Shown here piece by piece: positions 209 to 4,613 of a stretch of 47,846 nucleotides of DNA. Source of the DNA: Candidatus Woesearchaeota archaeon (GTDB taxonomy: Archaea; Nanobdellota; Nanobdellia; Woesearchaeales; SKGA01). Both the position numbers and the translations under genes were made by a program. Within the stretch, counting starts at the first letter, position 1. Each line of letters begins with the position of its first letter. A model generated the notes under the pieces. The model made no database searches. It saw nothing but the letters and a program-made list of their open reading frames with translations, and was not told where the DNA came from. The stretch covers positions 1-47,846 of the forward strand of contig JAIPJP010000007.1 of assembly GCA_021734105.1 (NCBI GenBank). The letters are read 5' to 3'.

Positions 209-343
209 TTAACGGTACGATTTTTGGCGTGTTAAACCTGACGGGTTTGACACCAAGAAATCTTATCTAACGATAAGATTTCTGCCGTGTTAAGCATGAA
301 ATGCTTGACAAACAAAAATCCTTTAACGATAGGATTTTTGTCT
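209..343 (-). repeat. Three tandem recoded copies of the rpsI 3' end with hairpins
   Basis: Read on the minus strand, the final codons of rpsI occur three times at 56-58 bp spacing. Copy 1 (323-340, the living gene) is CAA AAA TCC TAT CGT TAA. Copy 2 (267-284) is CAG AAA TCT TAT CGT TAG. Copy 3 (209-226) is CAA AAA TCG TAC CGT TAA. All encode QKSYR-stop, and the preceding arginine is AGA, CGG and CGC. The copies are not all in one frame. Copies 1 and 2 are each followed by a perfect inverted copy of their own tail (arms 313-322/331-340 and 256-267/272-283). A second hairpin with conserved flanks and variable stem follows each (287-310 and 229-253). This is seen directly; the mechanism is inference. 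Confidence 0.85.
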
Positions 344-4403: not shown

Positions 4404-4554
4404 GTTCAAATACCAGCAACGCTTAAATGAGTATGGGGTGGCGCCTGGGATTCCATAAAGCAAGCTCTGCTTGCGAAGGGGTGCAGGAACGTCAGTGACA
4501 GCATGTTCAAATGCCGGTTGACGCATAAATGAAAATGGGGCGGCACCCGGGATT
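4404..4554 (-). repeat. Imperfect direct repeat copying the 3' end of tRNA-His
   Basis: Two ~50-bp segments about 101 bp apart, 4404-4452 and 4505-4554, align along their whole length. The upstream-lying copy (by minus-strand reading) contains the last ~18 nt of tRNA-His plus its 3' flank. The second carries a diverged version in which the acceptor end reads GGCGCCACCCCA instead of GGTGCCGCCCCA. Both copies share the blocks GTTCAAAT, TAAATGA and TGGGG on the plus strand. No tRNA body accompanies the second copy. This resembles the scar of an element that targets a tRNA 3' end. Confidence 0.8.
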
Positions 4555-4613
4555 TGAACCCGGACTAAAAGATCCACAGTCTCATGTGCTAACCAGATTA
4601 CACTAATGCCACC
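4536..4613 (-). tRNA. tRNA-His (anticodon GTG)
   Basis: The minus strand folds as a full cloverleaf. The extra 5' G at 4613 faces C73, the hallmark of tRNA-His; the acceptor stem is GTGGCAT/GTGCCGC with two G-U pairs. The anticodon loop CTGTGGA gives GTG. The T-arm is CCGGG TTCAAAT CCCGG. A CCA follows the discriminator (4536-4538), so the end may be encoded. It lies upstream of the ribosomal operon on the same strand and divergent from leuS. Confidence 0.95.

Follow-up and report, generated by a model that had tools for sequence, protein, structure and literature searches.

In this genome the 3′ end of rps9 (uS9) stands three times in tandem, each copy spelling the same residues in different codons, and this array belongs to a class of gene-end units that is spread through its lineage, a family of Woesearchaeales. 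We propose, at roughly even chances of being right, that small gene-free inserts enter at gene ends, each providing a substitute end and displacing the old one downstream. Sequence comparison shows the anatomy of the units, the genes that they target and their patchy distribution and turnover. The stretch analyzed here (the window, 47,846 nt) corresponds to contig C7 of a draft genome of 1.07 Mb and 42 contigs (G000 among the genomes compared), of which 996 kb, all but ten short contigs, was read.

All features of the rps9 locus lie on the minus strand. The host gene occupies the open reading frame at 323–718, and its functional end is tail 1 (323–343; AGA CAA AAA TCC TAT CGT TAA, RQKSYR-stop), the end now used. 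The coding tail forms the left arm (343–331) of hairpin 1 (310–343), whose right arm lies at 322–310 and whose loop, ATCGTTAA (330–323), contains the stop codon; the 13-bp arms include one G-U pair and hold a perfect 11-bp core (312–341). A spacer hairpin, TGTCAAGCAT-TTC-ATGCTTAACAC (287–310), leads to tail 2 (267–287; CGG CAG AAA TCT TAT CGT TAG, RQKSYR-stop), which is likewise the left arm of a hairpin with the stop in its loop (256–283; perfect 12-bp arms, loop GTTA). The spacer hairpin of the second unit, TGTCAAACC-CGTCA-GGTTTAACAC (229–252; like the first, located by folding and a pattern search), leads to tail 3 (209–229; CGC CAA AAA TCG TAC CGT TAA, RQKSYR-stop), which has no such stop-loop hairpin and, judging from its sequence and from relatives, is probably the original end. 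Beyond it lies the start of the RNA polymerase subunit N gene (1–181), truncated by the contig end. Each right arm pairs with its own tail, that of tail 2 fitting neither tail 1 nor tail 3, and a hairpin of the form TGTCAA-stem-TTAACAC stands upstream of both tails 2 and 3. The tail region as a whole folds at −47.6 kcal/mol against a shuffle mean of −24.2 kcal/mol (z = −6.7). A sequence-only reading of this stretch had described three tandem, synonymously recoded QKSYR-stop ends spaced by 56–58 bp, and both points hold: the tails lie at 343–323, 287–267 and 229–209, their stops are 56 and 58 nt apart, and tails 1 and 2 differ at 5 nucleotides with 0 amino-acid changes, as do tails 2 and 3. The hairpins and the tandem ends at other genes were not part of that reading.

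The uS9 protein was detected in 56 of 59 related genomes, and the gene order rps9–RNA polymerase subunit N is common to most of the relatives. Variable copy number among relatives, which the same reading had anticipated, was found: this genome has three rps9 tails, whereas G001 and G002 (same genus) and G003 (same family) have one each, followed by a short spacer. With a single tail in all three family relatives, this genome alone among those seen has the extra units. The Tyr codon at the rps9 end is TAC in the three relatives and in tail 3 and TAT in tails 1 and 2, so that tail 3 appears to be the original one. The alternative offered by that reading, remnants of replacement by divergent rpsI alleles, is disfavored as a whole-gene replacement because the body of rps9 finds its best uS9 matches (74–77% identical) within the same genus.

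A search for other genes with tandem ends, which the earlier reading had proposed as a check, finds many, and they include both protein genes and tRNAs in several genomes of the family. For each gene end in this genome, the sequence downstream was searched for a further copy of the final residues, gene names being those that we assigned from sequence; G001 and G003 were read in part and G002 hardly at all. An amino-acid scan of 1,608 ORF ends gave 18 matches scoring at least 26, against 3, 1 and 0 in three controls, and both rps9 copies score 31. A second tail, mostly recoded by silent changes, lies 45–154 nt downstream in no fewer than twelve protein genes of this genome. They include uS10 (GLNIEIEMV, 78 nt, all differences silent), a zinc-ribbon protein (KEPKKKK, 79 nt), a KH protein with two extra copies (49 and 100 nt), FKBP (57 nt, an identical copy), ribonucleotide reductase (RNR; 57 nt), Zpr1 (45 nt), GrpE (119 nt), aIF5B (119 nt, an identical copy), a coiled-coil protein (154 nt), TBP (54 nt), TFB (49 nt) and the gene at C4:18066 (45 and 88 nt, with TTI spelled by three sets of codons); for the last few of these the matches are short. 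Tail spacing is independent of reading frame. Matches inside real long genes (C22, C10:11571) were discarded as unrelated. In this draft assembly exact-repeat units occur at the end of C6, the end of C10 and the start of C23, and the identical copies at these places are less certain. Four tandem ends were found in G001 (the coiled-coil gene, a Trm4-like methyltransferase, PCNA and TBP), and G003 has them at uS10, Trm4, a TFS-like gene and others. Besides rps9, insert-free counterpart sites exist in relatives for KH, PCNA, TFS and RNR, and the presence of units is patchy among close relatives. A genome-wide search for the last 7 residues plus stop of any gene returned only local tandem copies, barring evident paralogues and contig-end repeats, and 414 comparisons yielded 0 mid-gene insertions. 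Strong hairpins centered on the stop codon are enriched across the genome (14 genes score at least 10 there, while other offsets give 0 to 6), and they also occur at genes that have no tail copy, such as the ribosomal protein gene at C5:39971.

Transfer RNA genes are affected at least as often. Counting a copy of the last 12 nt with at most one mismatch within 220 nt downstream, a copied 3′ end was found for 11 of 25 tRNAs in this genome, 4 of 16 in G001, 2 of 7 in G003 and 1 of 9 in G002, compared with 3 of 74 outside the family and a chance expectation that we calculate at about 0.0005 per tRNA. Four tRNAs of this genome have at least two extra end copies, and one tRNA-Met has an additional, more decayed copy. 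Within the window, tRNA-His (4536–4612, minus strand) is followed 102 nt downstream by a copy of its 3′ end, GGCGCCACCCCA (4434–4445; 2 of 12 positions mismatched), with a piece complementary to the T arm just before it, a unit of the rps9 kind. The 5′ ends of genes are affected less often, the cases being UvrA (G001), ribosomal protein L11 (this genome) and tRNA-Asn (G002). The L11 start (ATGGCTAAAGAAAC) is present twice on contig C5 (minus strand, about 10.3–10.8 kb along the strand), and between the copies lies a 51-bp repeat which, in frame with the first start, encodes MAKETKIKDFRTSAINNLAEKTKIKDF...

The two ends of a pair share amino acids rather than codons. By our tally over the clear tail pairs from a search at the nucleotide level, which gives silent change no advantage, third codon positions account for 40 of the 54 coding differences, where one third would be expected. 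Among 24 tail pairs, a set partly picked by amino-acid similarity, the altered codons comprise 73 silent ones and 23 that replace the residue, against 82 of the latter expected for random change (the lowest of 400 simulations gave 67). The downstream tails thus keep their amino acids and not their codons, and the divergence can be saturated, including swaps between the Ser codons TCA and AGT; in KH the older distal copies have non-conservative changes. These figures show coding constraint on both tail copies. Such mostly silent, saturated divergence means that a downstream tail is not a freely drifting fossil: either the event was recent and joined ends of different origin, or the cell uses both ends. 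The end that looks native differs between loci. The distal tail looks native or ancestral at rps9 (from its TAC codon), at TBP, where the distal LKNLK matches relatives and tail 1 reads LKNLT, and at the zinc-ribbon gene, whose distal tail retains an extension found in G003. At uS10 the native-looking end is tail 1 and the distal tail appears foreign, since seven codons are common to tail 1 and the one tail of G002; less clearly, the same appears to apply to the coiled-coil and Trm4 genes. The idea that each downstream tail is a displaced former end, put forward from the rps9 sequence, fits rps9, TBP and the zinc-ribbon gene and appears not to fit uS10 and probably the two other loci. Both uS10 tails, with similar spacers, are present in G000 and G003, which belong to two genera, so that this unit predates the two genera or a like insert came twice.

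A typical unit begins with a tail and its stop, the tail often forming one arm of a hairpin that carries the stop in its loop; a second hairpin or the conserved motif CGCCTATG...TGGC follows, and after it comes the next tail. The spacers are 13–106 nt long, gene-free, mostly hairpin-forming and mostly dissimilar between genes. The motif CGCCTATG-N-A(A/C)TGGC has three copies in this genome, each immediately 5′ of a displaced gene end, and in the readable sequence of three genomes all five instances lie within tandem-end units. It matches 7 times in the four family genomes (0 in the reversed control) and 20 times in the other 349 of the 353 genomes of the order, where the control gives about 10, so that single matches outside the family mean little. 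A second motif, CAGTGAAT...(T/C)TAACG, recurs in the spacers of uS10, FKBP, tRNA-Val and tRNA-Ser and also at 1740–1811 of the window. The hairpin-rich segment there (1738–1818, between an rpo3-like gene and tRNA-Leu) reads CAGTGAAT...ATTCTAACG, and no duplicated gene end was recognised in it. An inverted tail lies between the direct tails more often than in shuffles at both rps9 units (p = 0.003 and 0.003), at unit 1 of C4:18066 (p = 0.003) and at uS10 of G000 (p = 0.013); at most other loci it is missing or no commoner than by chance. Wider searches returned little: the strict TGTCAA...TTAACAC pattern was found at rps9 and one unrelated site only, a hairpin-motif scan did no better than scrambled controls, two spacer patterns had no match in viral contigs, a tRNA-spacer pattern matched this genome only among 288 genomes of the order, and an Rfam search gave no match. 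A CRISPR-like array in G003 (contig C36, L252; about 1–3 kb and 10–12 kb; repeats of about 37 nt, CTCCGCGCCCAGAATCCAATAAAACAAGGATTGAAAC, with a period of about 73 nt) was discarded as unrelated to the gene-end units.

Among known systems, elements moved by tyrosine recombinases offer the closest parallels in targeting. Half of the streptococcal integrative and conjugative elements with tyrosine integrases sit at the 3′ ends of tRNA or housekeeping genes and few at 5′ ends, and their targets include rpsI, rplL and guaA (PMC4701971). Such elements likewise restore the end of their target, rpsI included, displace the old end to the far side, rarely use 5′ targets and can insert serially at one site; the units described here share with site-specific integration the 3′-end location, the restored end with a copy at the far junction and the insert-free site in relatives. 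They differ in being 13–106 nt long, gene-free and without an encoded integrase, in having dozens of targets per genome, and in end copies that are short and recoded. MITEs and REP/REPIN sequences are also tiny, non-coding, hairpin-forming and located at gene ends, but they exist as many near-identical copies with a named transposase, whereas the units here are few, locus-specific and carry the end of their own gene; the best shared motif has three copies, no k-mers are over-represented in this genome that would indicate a high-copy repeat family, and no Y1 (RAYT-type) transposase (PF01797) was found in it. Rickettsia palindromic elements are read in frame inside proteins. They too are small palindromic inserts of reduced genomes that coding genes tolerate, but the units here follow a complete, restored end. 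Nothing describing tandem gene-end units was found in the literature on Woesearchaeota or DPANN archaea.

In the insertion model that we favor, an insert would enter a tRNA or housekeeping protein gene at its 3′ end, or occasionally a gene at its 5′ end, leaving in order the gene body, a new end, a spacer and the old end. The replacement end would derive from a related allele or from the element in circulation, which would explain identical residues spelled by different codons, and arrays would build up where one gene was hit repeatedly, rps9 representing two events. Because the end is re-supplied and the host gene never broken, insertions would be seen at ends only. We infer that the inserts are mobile, that they carry the replacement end and that a site-specific recombinase moves them. 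Six tyrosine recombinases are encoded in this genome, and no recombinase gene lies inside the rps9-type units. Diverged tyrosine recombinases lie shortly downstream of tRNA-Tyr (C13:8.6–11.8 kb) and of the tRNA-Met with a tail-copy array (C10:15.7–16.8 kb); no distal tRNA copy was found at either locus. The integrating element invoked in the sequence-only reading is thus upheld in part: tRNA genes, the classic integrase targets, are the most frequently affected and ends are restored, but the inserts are gene-free and no large element is flanked by tail copies, the search of this genome for far-apart end pairs bounding one giving 0 for protein tails and 0 for tRNA tails. An autonomous, full-size relative of the inserts was likewise looked for and none was found. 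Against the model, the variety of targets exceeds ordinary sequence-specific integration, the spacers are mostly dissimilar, the uS10 pair shared by two genera looks older than a recent insertion, and at uS10, less clearly at the coiled-coil and Trm4 genes, the end that looks native is tail 1.

Local replication error is an unlikely source of the arrays in our judgment, though one that deserves real weight. A template switch near a palindromic gene end would write the tail, a fold-back copy and the tail again, amounting to a very short tandem inversion duplication of which only gene-end events survive and whose later differences are drift. Tandem inversion duplications do show the direct-inverted-direct order that some loci, rps9 included, display, and template switching accounts for that order at both rps9 units, C4:18066 and uS10, where it exceeds shuffles; the identical copies at aIF5B and FKBP and the lack of tail copies outside the locus also fit. 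Template switching accounts neither for the recoding nor for the shared motif, which recurs in the spacers of unrelated genes, and drift of an unused copy gives neither mostly silent change nor Ser TCA/AGT swaps. The units are, moreover, on a scale of about 20 nt and confined to gene ends, with recurrent spacer motifs and codon-recoded copies, and most loci lack the inverted copy. Still less can be said for transcription terminators or other 3′-end signals that overlap the tail and, when duplicated, copy it as a by-product, an improbable reading in our view: the enrichment of stop-centered hairpins speaks for it, but silent-only divergence and the tRNA and 5′ cases go unexplained, and many spacers follow a tail without a strong hairpin. 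We consider it very improbable that assembly or binning joined pieces of related strains at short repeats; the genome is a draft with exact-repeat units at three contig ends, but four genomes that were assembled independently show the class, diverged copies lie within long contigs, and gene ends are strongly preferred.

A different kind of explanation holds that both ends are used, the body being joined to tail 2 as well as to tail 1 and both being selected, either because the unit is skipped in RNA (by processing and ligation, or by ribosomes bypassing about 50 nt) or because it is excised from the DNA in some cells. We think this doubtful. It would explain why distal tails keep their amino acids over long codon divergence and why the uS10 pair persists in two genera, and the stop-in-loop hairpins cover exactly the segment to be skipped. 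The bypass elements of T4 gene 60 and of yeast mitochondria (byps) similarly comprise a segment of about 50 nt with stem-loops, a stop codon and frame-independent spacing, which bypass or excision would allow. Yet the units here hold a complete alternative end, the rps9 frame is complete without skipping, the distribution is patchy, no unit was mid-gene in the 414 comparisons, the older distal KH copies carry non-conservative changes, and a ribosomal mechanism cannot account for the tRNA genes. Patchy presence, the lack of mid-gene insertion, frame-independent spacing and the like treatment of tRNA and protein ends together favor DNA insertion over RNA skipping. Readthrough and frameshifting were rejected since the spacings do not track the frame. 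There is a modest chance that the units belong to a gene-free hairpin cassette system of DPANN archaea, whose sites would carry the end of the target gene and allow reversible gene-end exchange, with both ends selected; a likeness to integron cassettes with an attC-like folded site was noticed by eye only. On this gene-end exchange reading, which we rate as rather unlikely, the hairpin cassettes might enter and leave almost any tRNA or protein gene end. Should both ends be used after all, the units would represent a new archaeal mode of gene expression or a reversible rearrangement.

If the insertion model is true, essential genes of small archaeal genomes would be repeatedly invaded at their ends by tiny inserts that annotation does not see, and the recoded leftover tails would be a record of past insertion events. 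Invasion of essential genes without breakage would be a previously unrecognised route, with recoding acting as a natural rescue of gene ends, and the family would offer a test bed for the preference of integrases for the ends of tRNA and ribosomal-protein genes. The 3′ UTRs, terminators and tRNA surroundings of such genomes would then have to be interpreted with caution.
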